Part shown: one piece after another, positions 7,368 to 32,014 of the stretch
How the letters are laid out: each line of letters starts with the position of its first letter
Position numbering within the stretch: the stretch's first letter is position 1
Source: a candidate division KSB1 bacterium
GTDB taxonomy: Bacteria; Zhuqueibacterota; JdFR-76; DREG01
Length of the DNA: 35,722 bases
Direction of reading: 5' to 3'
Assembly: GCA_022566355.1 (NCBI GenBank)
Contig: JADFJB010000038.1
Coordinates: forward strand, 1-35,722
Notes under the pieces: generated by a model
What the model was told of the DNA's origin: nothing
Databases searched by the model: none
The model's input: the letters and a program-made list of their open reading frames with translations, nothing else
Made by a program: the position numbers and the translations under genes

Positions 7368-7487
7368 TGGAACCAATCTACATTCATAGAGTCGGAAGGG
7401 AATAATTATATTGTCGAGATATCTAATGGCAGTAATACATTGTTTGATTTTGATGACCAACCCAATGAAACTGATCCAATTAATTAA
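7368..7487 (+). pseudogene. possible gene-end relic (39 open codons), unrecognised
   Basis: A short open stretch directly after an in-frame stop, with no start codon or ribosome-binding site. It ends in a protein-like sequence, FDFDDQPNETDPIN, then TAA. The stop codon lies inside the TTAACCTG palindrome that starts at 7484. It could be the decayed 3' end of a lost gene or chance; the product is not identifiable. Confidence 0.15.
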
Positions 7488-7517
7488 CCTGGATAATTCA
7501 TAAATAGGTCAGGTTAA
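7484..7517. repeat. TTAACCTG inverted-repeat element, compact copy
   Basis: The left arm TTAACCTGGATAATTCAT is followed at once by a converging arm AATAGGTCAGGTTAA, so the two ends of an inverted-repeat element meet with almost no interior. The same two ends, in the same relation, bound the 178-base stretch at 25140-25317. Confidence 0.65.
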
Positions 7518-12722: not shown

Positions 12723-12820
12723 TCCTATTCTCCTTCTGTTAACTTTTCATTCAAATCATTGTTTTAATCTAAAAATATCCTTCCGAACTGCAAGTTGACG
12801 GAGAAAAACTCACCAATAAT

Positions 12821-12935
12821 GTCATTCTGAGCAAAGCGAAGAATCTCTTTGTGTTATAATTCCTGAGATTACCAATTTTGTGCAACTTCAATCATCAAGG
12901 GATTCTTCACTCCGCTAAAGCGGATTCAGAATGAC
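12821..12935. repeat. GTCATTCTGA palindromic element, copy 1
   Basis: The left arm (12821-12847) begins GTCATTCTGAGCAAAGCGAA and the right arm (12901-12935) ends CGGATTCAGAATGAC, its inverse; the arms share GTCATTCTGA at the tips and GAAGAATC inside. The interior is about 53 bases. The right tip is two bases from the stop codon of the GIY-YIG gene. Confidence 0.85.
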
Positions 12936-12937
12936 AG

Positions 12938-13228
12938 CTATTTTTTATACCCATCTTTACTTAAGTCTCTCCAATATGGATTTGTTTTTTCGATGAGTTC
13001 AATTTGCTTATTTCTTAACCAACCTTTTAGTTGCTTCTCACGAACAATGGCTTGGTTTATATCATAACATGTTTCATGGTAGACTAGTTTCGATAGATTA
13101 TATCTAGACGTAAAACCCCTTATCAGTTTTTCTTTATGTTCATAAACTCTACGGTTCAAATTATTTGTAACTCCAATATAAAGAGTACCTGATTTGTTTG
13201 TCATGATGTAAACATAATATTGATGCAT
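12938..13228 (-). CDS. small GIY-YIG domain nuclease
   Basis: A 96-residue stand-alone GIY-YIG protein of the UvrC N-terminal / YhbQ (UPF0213) type. Motifs in order: YYVYIM at 4-9, LYIGVT at 17-21 followed by R26/R27 (catalytic Arg), the conserved Y29-E30-H31 segment, E64 in REKQLKGW as the metal-binding Glu, and N83. All key residues look intact, so the enzyme may be active on DNA. Cellular roles of these small proteins are poorly known. The gene is boxed by two palindromes of the same family: its TAG stop is two bases from copy 1 and its start is 60 bases from copy 2. AGGACT immediately before the ATG is a weak ribosome-binding site. No partner gene is adjacent. Confidence 0.9.
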   Translation of the reverse strand: MHQYYVYIMTNKSGTLYIGVTNNLNRRVYEHKEKLIRGFTSRYNLSKLVYHETCYDINQAIVREKQLKGWLRNKQIELIEKTNPYWRDLSKDGYKK

Positions 13229-13288
13229 AGTCCTGCAATTTAGTAGCTTCCATCAATAGTAGAATAATAACTAAAAATTCTAACAAAT

Positions 13289-13373
13289 GTCATTCTGAAC
13301 GAAGTGAAGAATCTCCAGTGTGAATCTCGCATGAAATTATTACCAAGAGATTCTTCGCTTCACTCAGAATGAC
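13289..13373. repeat. GTCATTCTGA palindromic element, copy 2
   Basis: Two 27-base arms, 13289-13315 (starting GTCATTCTGAACGAAGTGAA) and 13347-13373 (ending CTTCACTCAGAATGAC), are near-perfect inverse copies around a 31-base interior. It lies between the start of the GIY-YIG gene and the stop codon of the amidohydrolase (12 bases away), where it could also act as a bidirectional terminator. Confidence 0.88.
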
Positions 13374-13384
13374 AAAATTTCAAA

Positions 13385-20445: not shown

Positions 20446-22608
20446 TTGAAGAAAATTACTACAACTACAGTTTGCTTATTCATCTTTATTTTACTCATCG
20501 GTTCTGTTACCAAAGCTTCTGATCCCCTGAAACCCCTGAGGACCGATCATCCTCCAACCATTGATGGAATTCTAAATGATCTTGTATGGCAAAACGCCCC
20601 TTCAATTACAGGCTTTAAGACTTTTACTCCTGATTTTGGCCACGATATGGCTGAGAAAACCATCGCATATATGGCCTATGATCAGGAAAATATGTATTTT
20701 GCTTTTCGGTGTTATGACAGCCAACCCGATAAAATTAAGTCTTCAGTAACACGACGTGATAACATTCGTGCTGATGATTGGATTTGTATCAATTTAGATT
20801 CTTTTAACGATCAACAAGGGTTATATGGTTTTTACATTAATCCTTTCGGTATCCAGGAAGATACTCGGTTCGCGGGTGGCACAGAAGACAAAGGTATCGA
20901 CCTGGTTTGGTATAGTAAAGGCCAAATCGATGCCGAAGGCTACACCATTGAAGTGCAAATACCCTTTAAAAGCATTCGATTTGCCAATAAAGAAATCGTC
21001 GAGATGGGAGTCATTTTCGAGCGTAAAATAAGCCGAAGATCCGAACAAGGCACATACCCTCCCCTTAGCCCTGACATAGGACTTTTGGGCTTTCTCACCC
21101 AAATGCAGCCGATGATTTATCAAGACATCAAACATTATACGTTATTCGAGGTTCTTCCGGCGGTAACCTACGGTCAAAGAAGTGAAATTGACCAGGGTAG
21201 TTTATCCTCCCTGGGATCTAATGAAGATTTCAGTTTAACGGGAAAACTTGGACTTACATCCGATTTAATTTTAGATGGCACCTACAATCCCGACTTTAGT
21301 CAAGTTGAAGCCGATGCCGGTCAGGTAGACTTTAACCAACGATTTGCCCTGTTTTTTTCTGAAAAGAGACCCTTCTTTTTGGAAGGTCGTGAAAATTTCA
21401 ATTTTTCCGGCAGTAGTCATGGAGATCCTCTAATTTCCGTAGTGCATACTCGAACGATTGTAAATCCGATTACCGGTATTAAATTGTCCGGAAAAACCGG
21501 AAAAAAGAATACCATTGCTTCCATCTATGCTTTGGATGAATTACCTGGTGATGATCCGGATGGCGATTATGCACATTTTGCAATCATGCGCTACAAAAGG
21601 ACATTAAGCAGTGACAGTTATATTGGCGGCGTATATACAGGAAGAGAGGTAGAGAATGGCCATAACCGGGTATTTGGCGCTGATGGATCGCAAAGGATCA
21701 ACCAGTCAAGTGTATTAGGGTACCATTTACTATTTTCCAATCATAAGGATTCCGAATCTCTAAATAATGAGGATGGACACGCGCTCGGTGTTAATTATGT
21801 TTATCAAACCAGGAAGTTAAGGCTTGGTTTTGGTTATCATGATATTGGAGATCGTTTTCAGACTGAAACCGGTTTTATCACGCGCACAGGTATAGCCAAA
21901 TTCAGGGCTTCGTTTAGACCCAGATTCTACCCGGAAACCAAATTAATTCGTAGAGTCGACCCGAGTATATTTAGCTCCCAAACTAAAGATAAGTTAAGTG
22001 ATTTATGGGAAACCTATAACTCGGCTTCTTTAAGCTTTGTATTGCATGGCAATGGAAGGGTTTCAACTAGTTATGTCCACTCAACAGAAATATTTTTAGG
22101 AAAGAAATTTGATACCAATCGATGGAGTGTTTCAGGGAGCAGGCAGTTTAATAAGCAATTAACAATGAGTTTGTCATACAGCAATGGCAAAGCGATCCGC
22201 TATATAGAAGATCCTTTTCAAGCAAAAAGGAGTAATGCCAGCGCCAGTATAATATTCCAGCCTTCCGATAAAATCAATGCAAATGTAAGATTAACCTATA
22301 CAGACTTGTTCCAGGATTCCAATTTAGAAAAAATCTTTGATATTACGATTCTGAGAAACAGGCTTACTTACCAGATGAATCAATACCTTTTCTTTCGAGG
22401 AATTGTCGAATATAATTCATTCCGGAAAACATTGTTGACGGATTTCCTGGCTTCCTTTACTTACATCCCAGGAACTGTTATGCATTTCGGCTATGGATCA
22501 TTTTACGAGAAACTTAAATTTGAGCGAGGAGAATATTTGGAAAGCAACCGTTATCTTGAAACCACGCGAGGGTTTTTTGCCAAGGCATCCTATTTGTGGC
22601 GGTTGTAA
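20446..22608 (+). CDS. DUF5916 family protein with CBM9-like N-terminal domain, second copy
   Basis: A 720-residue paralogue of the protein at 9468-11774. GGAGG lies five bases before a TTG codon that starts MKKITTTT; the TTG 12 bases upstream overlaps this site and is rejected. A signal peptide ends at about SVTKAS. The CBM9-like domain has PPTIDGILNDLVWQNAPS near 36-53, and the DUF5916 region has LFFSEKRPFFLEGRENF. The chain ends in aromatic-rich strands (SYLWRL), as in outer-membrane barrels. Function is unknown. A strong hairpin follows the gene. It may be transcribed with the esterase-like gene upstream or from its own promoter in the 322-base gap. Confidence 0.85.
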   Translation: MKKITTTTVCLFIFILLIGSVTKASDPLKPLRTDHPPTIDGILNDLVWQNAPSITGFKTFTPDFGHDMAEKTIAYMAYDQENMYFAFRCYDSQPDKIKSSVTRRDNIRADDWICINLDSFNDQQGLYGFYINPFGIQEDTRFAGGTEDKGIDLVWYSKGQIDAEGYTIEVQIPFKSIRFANKEIVEMGVIFERKISRRSEQGTYPPLSPDIGLLGFLTQMQPMIYQDIKHYTLFEVLPAVTYGQRSEIDQGSLSSLGSNEDFSLTGKLGLTSDLILDGTYNPDFSQVEADAGQVDFNQRFALFFSEKRPFFLEGRENFNFSGSSHGDPLISVVHTRTIVNPITGIKLSGKTGKKNTIASIYALDELPGDDPDGDYAHFAIMRYKRTLSSDSYIGGVYTGREVENGHNRVFGADGSQRINQSSVLGYHLLFSNHKDSESLNNEDGHALGVNYVYQTRKLRLGFGYHDIGDRFQTETGFITRTGIAKFRASFRPRFYPETKLIRRVDPSIFSSQTKDKLSDLWETYNSASLSFVLHGNGRVSTSYVHSTEIFLGKKFDTNRWSVSGSRQFNKQLTMSLSYSNGKAIRYIEDPFQAKRSNASASIIFQPSDKINANVRLTYTDLFQDSNLEKIFDITILRNRLTYQMNQYLFFRGIVEYNSFRKTLLTDFLASFTYIPGTVMHFGYGSFYEKLKFERGEYLESNRYLETTRGFFAKASYLWRL

Positions 22609-22649: not shown

Positions 22650-22672
22650 CCCCCGAACGCTTTTTTCGGGGG
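22650..22672. terminator. hairpin downstream of the DUF5916 gene
   Basis: A perfect 8-bp stem, CCCCCGAA paired with TTCGGGGG around a 7-base loop (CGCTTTT), lies 41 bases after the stop codon. No T-tract follows, so it is an imperfect intrinsic terminator and may instead be another repeat. Confidence 0.5.
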
Positions 22673-22697
22673 CCTAATTCACTGATGAAAGGCTTTG

Positions 22698-22742
22698 AAA
22701 CCTGCAAGGTTTACTCACTCTTTACAAGACCTGGCAGGTTTT
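22698..22742. repeat. AAACCTGCAAGGTTT / AGACCTGGCAGGTTT palindrome pair
   Basis: AAACCT-GCA-AGGTTT at 22698-22712 is a perfect small palindrome. AGACCTGGCAGGTTT at 22728-22742 is a related imperfect one. The first recurs exactly at 22814-22828, beside the transposase pseudogene, and relatives bound 25363-25430. Confidence 0.8.
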
Positions 22743-22813
22743 TTGGCTAAGGAAACATAAATTCGTTCAAACGACAGGAATTCATCATGACTTAGCAAAA
22801 ACTTGTGGATTTG

Positions 22814-22828
22814 AAACCTGCAAGGTTT
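22814..22828. repeat. AAACCTGCAAGGTTT palindrome abutting the RAYT relic
   Basis: Exact copy of the palindrome at 22698-22712. Its last two bases overlap the TAA that would end the broken transposase frame (22827-22829). Confidence 0.8.
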
Positions 22829-23080
22829 ATTCGCATTCTTTTAGATATTGTTGAATATCTTTAAAGTCATTCAACATTTCATGTGATATTGAATAAATAA
22901 ACCTTTCCCTCCAAACCATTGCAAAACTTCATCTGTTTTCAAAAAGTATAATAATAGAATTTGCGCAGAAAATAAGTATAATTCCCCCTCTTTAAAAAAT
23001 ATTTTCTCTCGATTATTCCCACGGTTATTAACATGGTAAAATTTACCTTCTTCAAATGGTCTATTAAGTTTAAAGCTCAT
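22827..23080 (-). pseudogene. REP-associated tyrosine transposase (RAYT) relic
   Basis: The first residues, MSFKLNRPFEEGKFYHVNNR, followed by GNNREKIFF, match the conserved N-terminus of RAYT (Y1_Tnp-family) transposases. An extra G in the AGAGGGGGAA run shifts the frame: the other frame continues GNYTYFLRKFYYY, as intact relatives would. A second shift returns to YFLKTDEVLQWF, and a third near the end gives MLNDFKDIQQYLKECE then TAA. The catalytic HUH (HFHL) and Tyr region is missing, so there is an internal deletion as well. RAYTs act on short palindromic REP sequences, and this relic ends on an AAACCTGCAAGGTTT palindrome. It cannot make an active enzyme. Confidence 0.75.
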
Positions 23081-23115
23081 TTTCTTACTGTGAACTTTGA
23101 TCCTGTTAATGTATT

Positions 23116-24381
23116 TTAATCCATCTTTCGTATGACAAACGGCTGAACCCAGGCTGCTTCCATTTCGCCCTCTTTATATGGATTCTCTTTTAGTTTTGAA
23201 GAGATAACTTTAGCCCGAACATAAATTTCATCACCTGACCATGTATAACTCGGCGAAATCCCCTGCACTTCTAAAAATACTTCACCGATTTCGGCGCTAT
23301 AGTATCTGGTTACGCTGGCTGTTTCAGTTTCCAAAGTGGCTGCAAGTGACGGTATGTAACCTTTCCTTGTCCCAATAAATTGAGTCGAATAAGTTACTCC
23401 TTCTTCGGTTTGAATACTTATGTAAATCGTATTGTCACTATACTGGATATCCTGTAATACCACACCGGATGAGGAATAAAAATCGCCAGATTCCATGGCA
23501 GTAATGATTGCTTCCGGGGTGAGTTGATCGGTTTTAACCATCACCCATCCCCGGCCTGGGTTGCTATGGTTGCTATCAAGATCTCGATAATTATGGGCAT
23601 CATCGACAGCCATGCCGTATAACGGCTCGGCGCCTCGTTCAAGATTTGCCGTCAAAACGATATCCCACATTCGCTCGGTACTGGGATGAAGCTCATCTCC
23701 TTCATTATGTACTGCAGGATGGCCGTTGTACACTTCAAAAAATCGTTCACCTTCAAGGGCAATGATATCTTCCACTTTAACCGCCCAGCCAAAATTAGGA
23801 TGATTGAGATGTGGGAACATCAACTGCCCGGTACGCTCTCGCTGCTGTAATACTGCATTAATATTATTTTGCATGACTTCCAGCACACTATTGCCTCCCT
23901 GGGGAGGAATAAATTCAGCTAAATTAGTCGCATTCACATGAATTGGCTTTCTCTCAAAACGATCCGTAATTTCTTCACTCGGAATCATCAGGAATTGGCC
24001 GGGCTTCTCAAATAGGCTGTCATATTCACTCAACGTTTTTAGTCGAACCAAAACTAAACTATCCTGATCCTTTACTTCCACCCAGTCAGAACCGAACCGC
24101 ACAAGATACTCCTGATAAACCTGATAACGATTACTTTCTTTATGAACCTCAATCCATCTTTCTTCTGTTGGCAGAACATTATGATCCGATAAGGCAAGAA
24201 AATCATAGCCATTGGATTTGTACCAATCGATGATCATTTCAGGAAAATCGTCACCATCACTCCACAAAGAGTGAGTATGAAGGTTGCCTTTCCACCAGGT
24301 GGTTTTTTTAGAAGACTCACAGCTGAGGAAAAACATTAAAACTGACAAACATAAAGCAAATGAGATTTTGGATTTATTCAT
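23116..24381 (-). CDS. exported PHP-domain-like metal-dependent hydrolase
   Basis: A 421-residue protein with an N-terminal hydrophobic segment ending LMFFLSC, so probably a lipoprotein with C21 modified (the lipobox has Phe at -3). The PHP (polymerase and histidinol phosphatase) fold is suggested by GNLHTHSLWSDGD (H35, H37), LALSDHN (D66, H67), FPHLNHPNFGW and VDDAHNY, which provide the usual metal-binding His and Asp residues. The C-terminal third is beta-rich with no motif. PHP proteins are often phosphoesterases; the substrate of exported ones is unknown. AGGATGGA precedes the ATG. It lies between the RAYT relic and the oppositely oriented STAS gene, with no operon partner. Confidence 0.82.
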   Translation of the reverse strand: MNKSKISFALCLSVLMFFLSCESSKKTTWWKGNLHTHSLWSDGDDFPEMIIDWYKSNGYDFLALSDHNVLPTEERWIEVHKESNRYQVYQEYLVRFGSDWVEVKDQDSLVLVRLKTLSEYDSLFEKPGQFLMIPSEEITDRFERKPIHVNATNLAEFIPPQGGNSVLEVMQNNINAVLQQRERTGQLMFPHLNHPNFGWAVKVEDIIALEGERFFEVYNGHPAVHNEGDELHPSTERMWDIVLTANLERGAEPLYGMAVDDAHNYRDLDSNHSNPGRGWVMVKTDQLTPEAIITAMESGDFYSSSGVVLQDIQYSDNTIYISIQTEEGVTYSTQFIGTRKGYIPSLAATLETETASVTRYYSAEIGEVFLEVQGISPSYTWSGDEIYVRAKVISSKLKENPYKEGEMEAAWVQPFVIRKMD

Positions 24382-25139: not shown

Positions 25140-25317
25140 TTAACCTGATCTATTCATAAACCTTATCACTGTCATCCAGGATGGATCTATTTAACTCTTT
25201 ATTCTATACTTGCTTTTGAGTTTTTCGATCATATCAAACAAGATCCCGTCGTGCGACGGGATGACAACTAAGAGGGATTTATGCTTAAAACTGCAATTCA
25301 TGAATTATCCAGGTTAA
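25140..25317. repeat. TTAACCTG inverted-repeat element, long copy
   Basis: The left end TTAACCTGATCTATTCAT (25140-25157) and the right end ATGAATTATCCAGGTTAA (25300-25317) are imperfect inverse copies. The same ends lie back to back at 7484-7517. Here they are separated by about 142 bases that contain a different palindromic element. Confidence 0.65.
25171..25265. repeat. GTCATCC...GGATGAC element nested in the TTAACCTG element
   Basis: The tips GTCATCC (25171) and GGGATGAC (ending 25265) are inverse. A perfect hairpin, ATCCCGTCG-TG-CGACGGGAT, sits at 25243-25262. Confidence 0.7.
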
Positions 25318-25362
25318 TAATAATTTAGCTCTCACTTTATGATCATACAGAATTCTACGTAC

Positions 25363-25430
25363 AGACCAGGCAGGTTTCAAACTCATTGTGATATCGAATT
25401 ATACTTTCTTGGATAAAACCTGCCAGGTCT
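25363..25430. repeat. AGACCAGGCAGGTTT inverted pair
   Basis: AGACCAGGCAGGTTT at 25363-25377 and AAACCTGCCAGGTCT at 25416-25430 are inverse with one mismatch, around a 38-base AT-rich interior. It is related to the palindromes at 22698-22828. Placed 48 bases past the ThiN stop codon, it may fold as a terminator. Confidence 0.75.
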
Positions 25431-25477
25431 AGATTTACAACACAGAATAAATAGTACTTATTTAGGATTTACTTTGT

Positions 25478-30871: not shown

Positions 30872-31942
30872 TTAATTTCCCGGTACAGCAATTCTGGCGA
30901 TTGAATCCTCTTCCAGGCTGCCTATGTACAACATTCCATCATGCTCTTGTACGCTTGTCGTAACGCGATAACAATCTGACGAAGCATCTTGTAAATTGTG
31001 AATAACATCTCCTTGCAAGTTTAGCCCTAAAACGAAACTGTGATAGACTGGAGCCGGTTGAAGGAAACCAGGGAGTCTCATGATGATTTTACGAATGAAC
31101 GGCTTTGGCATTAATGCATCAAGTTCCGGCTTTCTGGGAGAAGCAATAGCCAGCCAGAACGTTTCTTTTTCATCGGATGAAATTCCATCCGGGAAACCTG
31201 GCAGGTTATCGATGAAGAGTTCAGATTTGCCTTGATCAGGGCCGCTTAACCAATACCTGGTTATTCGATATTTACCAGTTTCATTGACCAGGACAAAACT
31301 TTGATCCGGACTTACTGCAACTCCGTTGGCAAAGTACAAACTGTCCAGGATTACTTTGGTAATTTTAGTTTTCGGGTCAAAAGAAAGTAGCCTGCCATTG
31401 GGTCGATGCTCGAGCAAATCGGCTGTGTAATTGAGCTGGCCAAATTTATACGATGCATCACTGAAGTAGATCACGCCGTCTGCTGCAACATCCACATCAT
31501 CCGTAAAACCAAATGGGAGGCCGGCTGCTTGAGTGGTGAGAACTTTAATTACCCCCTCCGGAGAAATTGACAATAAACCTTTTTGAGAATCAGCTACGAT
31601 TAAATTTCCATTTGCATCGAAATGCATTCCCAAAGGTCGGCCTTGCGTGTCGGCAAAAATTTCAGGATTGGACCCGTCATTTTGGAAACGAATGATGCGG
31701 CCATCTTCATAGCCACCATAGATTCTACCTTTATCATCGATAGCCACATCCTCCGGTCCGATACCCATGCCCACACCTATTCTCTCAACATCTTTCAGAT
31801 AATCATTTGCAGCATACTGCCCTTCCAACGCAGGCGCTTCAGGAGGCGTCCAGGCAACAGGATCGATGGACACAGGCCAAATAAGCAGATAGATTATAAC
31901 CAGCACGATCAATACGGCGAGTAACTTTATTATTTTTTTCAT
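30872..31942 (-). CDS. SMP-30 / strictosidine synthase-like beta-propeller protein, membrane-anchored
   Basis: A 356-residue six-bladed propeller of the SMP-30/gluconolactonase/strictosidine synthase superfamily. The ATG reading MKKIIKLLAV follows AAGG by six bases; an earlier TTG is less likely. A single N-terminal hydrophobic segment (about 5-24) would anchor it facing the periplasm. Propeller motifs include GPEDVAIDDKGRIYGG, GFTDDVDVAADGVIYFSDAS, FANGVAVSPD and LPGFPDGIS, close to the pattern of APMAP/strictosidine-synthase-like proteins. Members are lactonases or arylesterases, but many are uncharacterised. It lies 72 bases downstream of the RluA-type gene on the same strand, and the spacer holds short ATGATCAAT repeats. 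Confidence 0.82.
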   Translation of the reverse strand: MKKIIKLLAVLIVLVIIYLLIWPVSIDPVAWTPPEAPALEGQYAANDYLKDVERIGVGMGIGPEDVAIDDKGRIYGGYEDGRIIRFQNDGSNPEIFADTQGRPLGMHFDANGNLIVADSQKGLLSISPEGVIKVLTTQAAGLPFGFTDDVDVAADGVIYFSDASYKFGQLNYTADLLEHRPNGRLLSFDPKTKITKVILDSLYFANGVAVSPDQSFVLVNETGKYRITRYWLSGPDQGKSELFIDNLPGFPDGISSDEKETFWLAIASPRKPELDALMPKPFIRKIIMRLPGFLQPAPVYHSFVLGLNLQGDVIHNLQDASSDCYRVTTSVQEHDGMLYIGSLEEDSIARIAVPGN

Positions 31943-32014
31943 AGACAACCTTGTTTACAATGATCAATGGTCAATAAACAATGATCAATAGCAATTAAGG
32001 CAATTAACAACTTT

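Follow-up and report, generated by a model that had tools for sequence, protein, structure and literature searches.

A decayed RAYT gene and its adjoining REP units in a candidate division KSB1 genome, compared with the hairpins of related RAYT loci

Results

A broken RAYT gene on the minus strand

The stretch of DNA analysed here (the window; 35,722 nucleotides, contig JADFJB010000038.1 of assembly GCA_022566355.1) comes from a candidate division KSB1 bacterium and carries a decayed gene for a REP-associated tyrosine transposase (RAYT), which runs from 23080 to 22827 on the minus strand, together with units of an inverted-repeat family. The relevant features are listed below; held-out E-values come from an nhmmer model built from eight unit copies, all outside the window.

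22827 to 23080, minus strand: RAYT pseudogene (the relic proper), with the N-terminal ~40 codons fused to the C-terminal ~35, three frame changes, HUH and Tyr absent and a TAA stop at 22829-22827
22945 to 22948, minus strand: approximate junction of an internal deletion, placed by HSP ends, with the counterparts of C3-RAYT residues 41-164 missing and the exact bases not resolvable
22725 to 22837, minus strand: REPIN unit at the 3′ end of the relic (nhmmer held-out E = 4e-13; covariance model E = 6.6e-6)
22687 to 22717, minus strand: half unit consisting of the left half, which contains the exact 15-mer (22698-22712; nhmmer held-out E = 1e-3)
25355 to 25433, plus strand: another complete REPIN unit of this family, lying between genes (nhmmer held-out E = 6e-15; covariance model E = 3.2e-14, the latter model being trained partly on this copy)

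A preliminary description of the window had recognised the N-terminus as that of a RAYT, and homology searches uphold this: of the 118 RAYT proteins taken from relatives and from named genomes (four re-fetched duplicates included), 116 matched positions 22700-23150 in tblastn searches at E up to 1, with a best E-value of 4.9e-10, against 0.007 for the best match elsewhere in the window. The C-terminal piece was found independently by 35 of 114 queries when the last 50 residues of each RAYT protein were searched with an E-value limit of 10 (best match 7.8e-7; elsewhere 0.008). Alignment to RAYT proteins located three frame switches, in agreement with the ‘at least three’ reported earlier: the relic reads in frame −1 from 23080 to 22988 (MSFKLNRPFEEGKFYHVNNRGNNREKIFFKE), in frame −2 from 22998 to 22948 (NYTYFLRKFYYY), in frame −1 again from 22945 to 22877 (LKTDEVLQWFGGKGLFIQYHMK) and then in the third frame (LNDFKDIQQYLKECE) to its stop. 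The internal deletion coincides with the second switch. Residues 41-164 of the C3 RAYT from the same genome (L075), a segment of ~124 residues with the HUH and Tyr motifs, have no counterpart in the relic, and the catalytic centre has thus been lost, as had been supposed. Since HUH and the catalytic tyrosine are deleted, being absent from the relic in the tblastn alignments, the relic is a pseudogene and not a working RAYT.

Profile scans of the isolated 69-residue piece gave no match in NCBIfam and a single insignificant, unrelated match in Pfam (E = 0.18), so that the identification rests on homologues; the earlier worry that the N-terminal match might prove unspecific in such a scan met with an empty result rather than an unspecific one. 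In the RAYT tree, the relic groups with the C3 RAYT and with the RAYT of genome G056 (SH-aLRT 98), the rows clustering with it being L075 and L049, although every row gets placed somewhere in a tree and the relic occupies only 40% of the columns. Its closest identity is 57%, to the C3 RAYT, over 77 columns. By itself this is an unremarkable pseudogene, of value through the comparison.

Repeat units in the window

The 15-mer AAACCTGCAAGGTTT occurs exactly at 22698-22712 and 22814-22828 and has no further exact copies in the whole genome; with up to three mismatches, the window holds 13 matches against 1.63 expected. As previously described, the second of these positions overlaps the terminal TAA and the first is a recurrence of the same letters; the palindrome at the relic begins within the stop codon. 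The description of the 15-mer as an exact, recurring palindrome needs qualifying, because 6-bp arms are separated by a 3-nt core, so that it is not a strict palindrome, and because it forms only half of a larger inverted-REP unit, whose ends are the palindromes. At the relic, the left half of this unit is AAACCTTGCAGGTTT (22828-22814) and the right half AAACCTGCCAGGTCT (22741-22727), with a loop ~31 nt longer. The left edge of the unit, TGCRAATA, coincides with the last codons and stop of the relic; on the 5′ side of the relic, no REP was found. The variant noticed earlier at 25363-25430 does belong to the same family but is one full unit, since the held-out model finds it at 25355-25433 on the plus strand.

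Several other features of the window were recorded in passing. By eye, CCCCCGAACGCTTTTTTCGGGGG at 22650-22672 is a terminator-like hairpin, lying between an ORF end at 22608 and the half unit. At 31194-31208, inside the ORF 30872-31948, AAACCTGGCAGGTTA is probably a chance match (unit model E = 0.19, not significant). A 96-residue GIY-YIG protein is encoded at 12938-13228 (Pfam E = 4.9e-15), flanked at 12820-12936 and 13288-13374 by inverted repeats of the type TGTCATTCTGAACGAAGTGAAGAATCTC, which differ from the REPs at the relic. A very abundant dispersed repeat, TTCATGAATTATCCAGGTTAA, is present at 25297-25317 (plus strand) and 7484-7504 (minus strand), and its genome matches with up to three mismatches number 70 forward and 74 reverse (control 0); several copies, for example on C177 and C124, form inverted pairs ~150 bp apart, like the ends of small inverted-repeat elements, and by eye a partner within the window lies at 25140-25160.

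The GGC/TGC family in this and related genomes

Genome-wide, AGACCTGNCAGGTTT occurs 11 times, every time as AGACCTGGCAGGTTT (reversed control 0), and the flanks define a unit of ~80 bp with TGCRAATAGACCTGGCAGGTTTCAAACTC as its left half and TTTCTTAGAAAAAACCTGCCAGGTCT as its right. A covariance model trained on nine copies placed this inverted-REP (REPIN) family at 11 distinct sites; it returned 14 matches, three of which repeat the same places on the opposite strand. The same model found long-loop units at two places in G002, from the same family of organisms. Nine of ten tested units overlap no ORF of at least 100 aa, and the family has the make-up of REPINs: two inverted REP halves that form one long hairpin, dispersed and mostly extragenic.

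The exact core of the relic repeat occurs in compact dyads 14 times in G056 and three times in G033, of the same genus (reversed control 0), and G056 carries it inside its RAYT too. No compact dyad with this core was found in the 4.62 Mb of the present genome (G000), nor in G001, G002 or G013. GGC/GCC dyads also flank the RAYTs of G016, G022 and G015, all outside the relic clade, so the core alone does not name a lineage.

Four RAYT-lineage genes, four repeats

Four genes of the RAYT lineage were found in this genome (the relic, C3, C29 and C135), each with a different repeat. The C3 RAYT has copies of AAACCTCTCAGGTTTTGGAAACCTGAGAGGTTT, with a CTC/GAG core, upstream, inside and downstream of the gene; the C29 RAYT has a GCGAT-type repeat in the same three positions; and C135 has AAACCCCGGGGTCTTGAAGACCCCGGGGTTT downstream, a hairpin of the CCCCGGGG type. 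As the other three genes have other repeats, this leaves the relic as the sole partner known for the GGC/TGC family in this genome.

The C3 RAYT is the only gene of the relic clade in this genome to retain both the HUH and Tyr motifs. A model search found its near-uniform 33-bp repeat family strongly at 16 places and more weakly at two, of which one is a GGC dyad, and the copies sit in unrelated flanks. Ten of 11 scored loci overlap no long ORF (two of 13 loci were not located and were left out, and L291 was scored at a neighbouring copy on C83). Mean column identity is 96% among nine distinct C3-type sequences against 74% among nine units of the relic-linked family, a contrast that is partly one of ascertainment because the C3 alignment came from exact-pattern hits. 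The repeats of the C3 RAYT and of the relic both have RACCT-NNN-AGGTY halves. To judge by sequence, the C3 RAYT with its repeats is apparently the live counterpart of the relic.

Two further relatives show damage of their own. In the C29 RAYT (L078; G000:C29, ~1524-2094), a 9-residue alignment gap removes the first HUH histidine; the GCGAT-type hairpin inside the gene is in frame, and the repeat has eight places in the genome (up to one mismatch), five of them within the C29 locus. The G056 RAYT (L093; G056:C187, ~1857-2270) is truncated after ~128 residues, its C-terminal part gone, and another open frame begins directly behind the truncation; its in-gene REP has the exact core of the relic.

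The NCBIfam profile NF047646 (REP_Tyr_transpos) was matched by all 12 aligned relatives at E = 1e-3 or better, and the C3 RAYT scored 56 bits, below the cut-off of 80; Pfam Y1_Tnp matched four of the 12 and did not report the C3 RAYT. The motif ACCT-N(3-4)-AGGT was absent from the examined flanks of the four Pfam Y1_Tnp matches in this genome, of which C135, with a hairpin of its own, is one. The candidates C72, C12 and C34 were set aside as other Y1 proteins, with flanks free of that motif.

Hairpins beside RAYT genes across 114 loci

From a sample of 126 loci, eight without a recognised RAYT ORF were removed, leaving 118, and removal of four re-fetched duplicates left 114. Hairpins were defined as perfect inverted repeats with arms of at least 13 bp and a loop of up to 5 nt, and were taken as near when within 200 bp of the gene. 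Such a hairpin accompanies the gene at 82 of the 114 loci (upstream at 59, downstream at 60, both at 37). Hairpin density is 44.6 times higher near the genes (131 in 45,135 bp) than farther away (25 in 384,283 bp), and many of the 25 distal hairpins are further copies of the same repeat. Of the 60 loci with a 3′ hairpin, 41 have its start no more than 15 nt from the stop codon. At 16 loci a hairpin lies inside the gene and in frame, and 17 of 20 in-gene hairpins fall at residues 62-87; in the relic the corresponding segment is deleted.

The narrower ACCT-type motif occurs within 200 bp at 22 of the 78 loci from named genomes and at 15 of the 40 from relatives (counts that include the four duplicates). 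In most relatives, then, the architecture is written in different letters, or no repeat was seen. Dyads of this type were detected in 31 of 99 genomes, with a reversed control of 0 throughout. Repeat type, scored as ACCT-type or other in the 83 of 114 rows where it was known, required 14 changes on the RAYT tree against 21-31 in 200 shuffles, a signal on which we do not lean because support is weak for 44 of the 111 inner branches.

Among the 114 compared proteins, 113 have an HUH-type motif (NHFH, NHYH, THFH, NHLH and NHEH counted), with NHFH in 90 and NHYH in 16; FE or FQ occurs in 98, S[SN]Y in 98 and the Tyr motif YIHNNP in 34, many others having YIHxNP.

The usual account of RAYT recognition invokes a GT[AG]G foot next to the hairpin. 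This canonical REP foot was absent here, appearing with three of 151 hairpins on one strand and one on the other (reversed control 1). An arm that contains a self-palindrome, with a half-length of at least 4, was found in 123 of the 151 hairpins against ~16% of shuffled arms, related loci in this count not being independent. A single strand of the 33-nt repeat forms one hairpin of 15 bp (−15 and −16.4 kcal/mol in two examples) and half of it folds alone (−3.1 kcal/mol); the relic unit is less distinctive (z = −2.9).

Discussion

A probable dead REPtron

We consider it likely that the locus is a dead REPtron, that is, a RAYT gene (from the HUH/Y1 family of single-strand transposases) followed at its 3′ end by its cognate REP unit, and that the units are a decaying orphan family. 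The reading draws on direct observations: the homology, the HUH/Tyr deletion, the frame breaks, membership of an 11-place family, the position of the unit, the gene-specific repeats and the divergence. By analogy with the mechanism proposed for TnpA-REP/REPIN systems, the relic enzyme would once have bound the hairpin that the units form as single strands, and its tyrosine would have nicked beside that hairpin; nicking would have let the units be moved or copied and so dispersed round the genome, where the death of the enzyme would have left them stranded and decaying.

That the palindrome is a cognate REP and the locus a fossil had been suggested before. Hairpins do accompany the lineage (82/114), often next to the stop codon (41/60), and the core recurs in G056, but the core of the intact C3 RAYT differs. 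Intact relatives had been expected to carry the same repeat, a different one being named as grounds for rejection; the C3 RAYT has CTC/GAG, which is literally that outcome, and the G056 RAYT that shares the relic core is itself truncated. We read this as a sign of gene-specific cognate REPs and not as a refutation, because the architecture is shared while the core differs from gene to gene. The intact relative with another core nevertheless counts against a dead REPtron, as do the absence from the genome of a compact dyad with the exact core, the GGC/GCC dyads beside RAYTs of other clades and the want of a 5′ REP at the relic.

Alternatively, the unit might have inserted next to a RAYT that was dead by then, through chance or a preference for the target, the GGC/GCC family having been spread by a RAYT since lost or unassembled. 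The genome is a draft (213 contigs, 98.5% complete), so another partner RAYT could be missing; long-loop GGC/GCC units also occur in G002, whose two RAYTs have other hairpins, and RAYTs of other clades are flanked by GGC/GCC dyads. Against such a landing, the unit occupies the exact place of the 3′ REP in intact relatives, its edge coincides with the last codons of the relic and the relic core is that of its clade mate in G056, which together make this account unlikely.

Mobilisation of both families in trans by the intact C3 RAYT, with the relic irrelevant to the GGC family, would suit the standing of C3 as the sole gene of the clade here with HUH and Tyr, and the RACCT-NNN-AGGTY halves common to both repeats. 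It is rendered very improbable by the CTC/GAG copies beside and inside C3, the core-specific flanking repeats of related genomes and the tracking of the RAYT tree by REP type beyond chance (14 versus 21-31 changes in 200 shuffles). That the palindromes are merely terminators of transcription or hairpins at mRNA ends, unconnected with a transposase, would be in keeping with their mostly intergenic position and, at the relic, their closeness to gene ends; this idea can practically be discounted given hairpins upstream of RAYT start codons (59/114), in frame within RAYT genes (16/114; 17/20 at residues 62-87) and 45 times denser near those genes.

Comparison with known systems

REPINs consist of two inverted REPs that form a long hairpin, dispersed and linked to a RAYT. 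The relic-linked units resemble the REPIN of Bertels and Rainey (2011) as an inverted REP pair with a long hairpin, dispersed and RAYT-linked; they differ from it in occupying only 11 places, in lacking GTAG and in that each half is self-palindromic.

Quentin et al. (2018; PMC6006769), who classified TnpA-REP/RAYT proteins, assign the insertion of REPs in frame exclusively to subclass 2.4, and structures lacking a GT[AG]G consensus to subclass 2.6 and class 3. Like subclass 2.4 (Bertels group 4), the present genes have REPs in frame between HUH and Tyr (at 16 of 114 loci) as well as flanking REPs, and occur in Bacteroidetes and other phyla; the double-foot REPs of that subclass resemble an inverted REP dimer. 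Unlike it, they show no GT[AG]G foot and have F[EQ] instead of WQ, and in most the tail carries an S[SN]Y motif that the table in PMC6006769 does not give for 2.4. With subclass 2.6 (Bertels group 5), as characterised in the same paper, they share a Bacteroidetes-rich distribution, flanking atypical structures without GT[AG]G and with copies elsewhere in the genome, a YIH[QN]NP-like Tyr motif and an SS tail; unlike subclass 2.6, whose structures are called weaker there, they have stems of 13-16 bp or longer, in-frame REPs of the kind ascribed to 2.4 and an HUH motif that is mostly NHFH. On the motifs tabulated in PMC6006769, the present set thus mixes patterns and features of 2.4 and 2.6.

The TIRYT/TIRtron system (Di Nocera et al., 2013; PMC3733652) likewise comprises genes resembling RAYTs, with inverted repeats on their flanks that lack GTAG; some of its TIRs are self-complementary or, in the words of a figure legend, ‘double palindromic’, and some belong to dispersed families. 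Unlike in that account, the common motif GGGGWSAS was not seen here. According to PMC6006769, most TIRYT examples were later placed in subclass 2.1, for which no REPs were found. The system described here is of a known kind, with an unusually symmetrical repeat.

A possible fourfold-symmetric repeat

As a tentative generalisation that may well prove too broad, we propose that a wide RAYT lineage (Bacteroidota, Chloroflexota, KSB1 and others) uses a fourfold-symmetric REP, a hairpin of ~33 nt with self-palindromic arms and no GT[AG]G foot, whose strands and halves would be near-identical in shape and whose short gene-specific core would set specificity, one genome holding four such enzyme-repeat pairs, apparently from live to fossil. 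The searched passages of PMC6006769, PMC3733652 and PMC12306157 contain no statement of a fourfold-symmetry rule, and we do not claim it as unpublished.

Conclusions

Related RAYT enzymes are tied to footless repeats with self-palindromic arms and, because each gene has its own core, the specificity of enzyme for core is directly testable. A single genome with an intact, an HUH-damaged and a fossil RAYT, and a distinct set of repeats for each, would make it possible to measure what becomes of a repeat family once its enzyme is lost; if the proposal is true, its decay would be readable within a single chromosome, since one genome holds four pairs at different stages.
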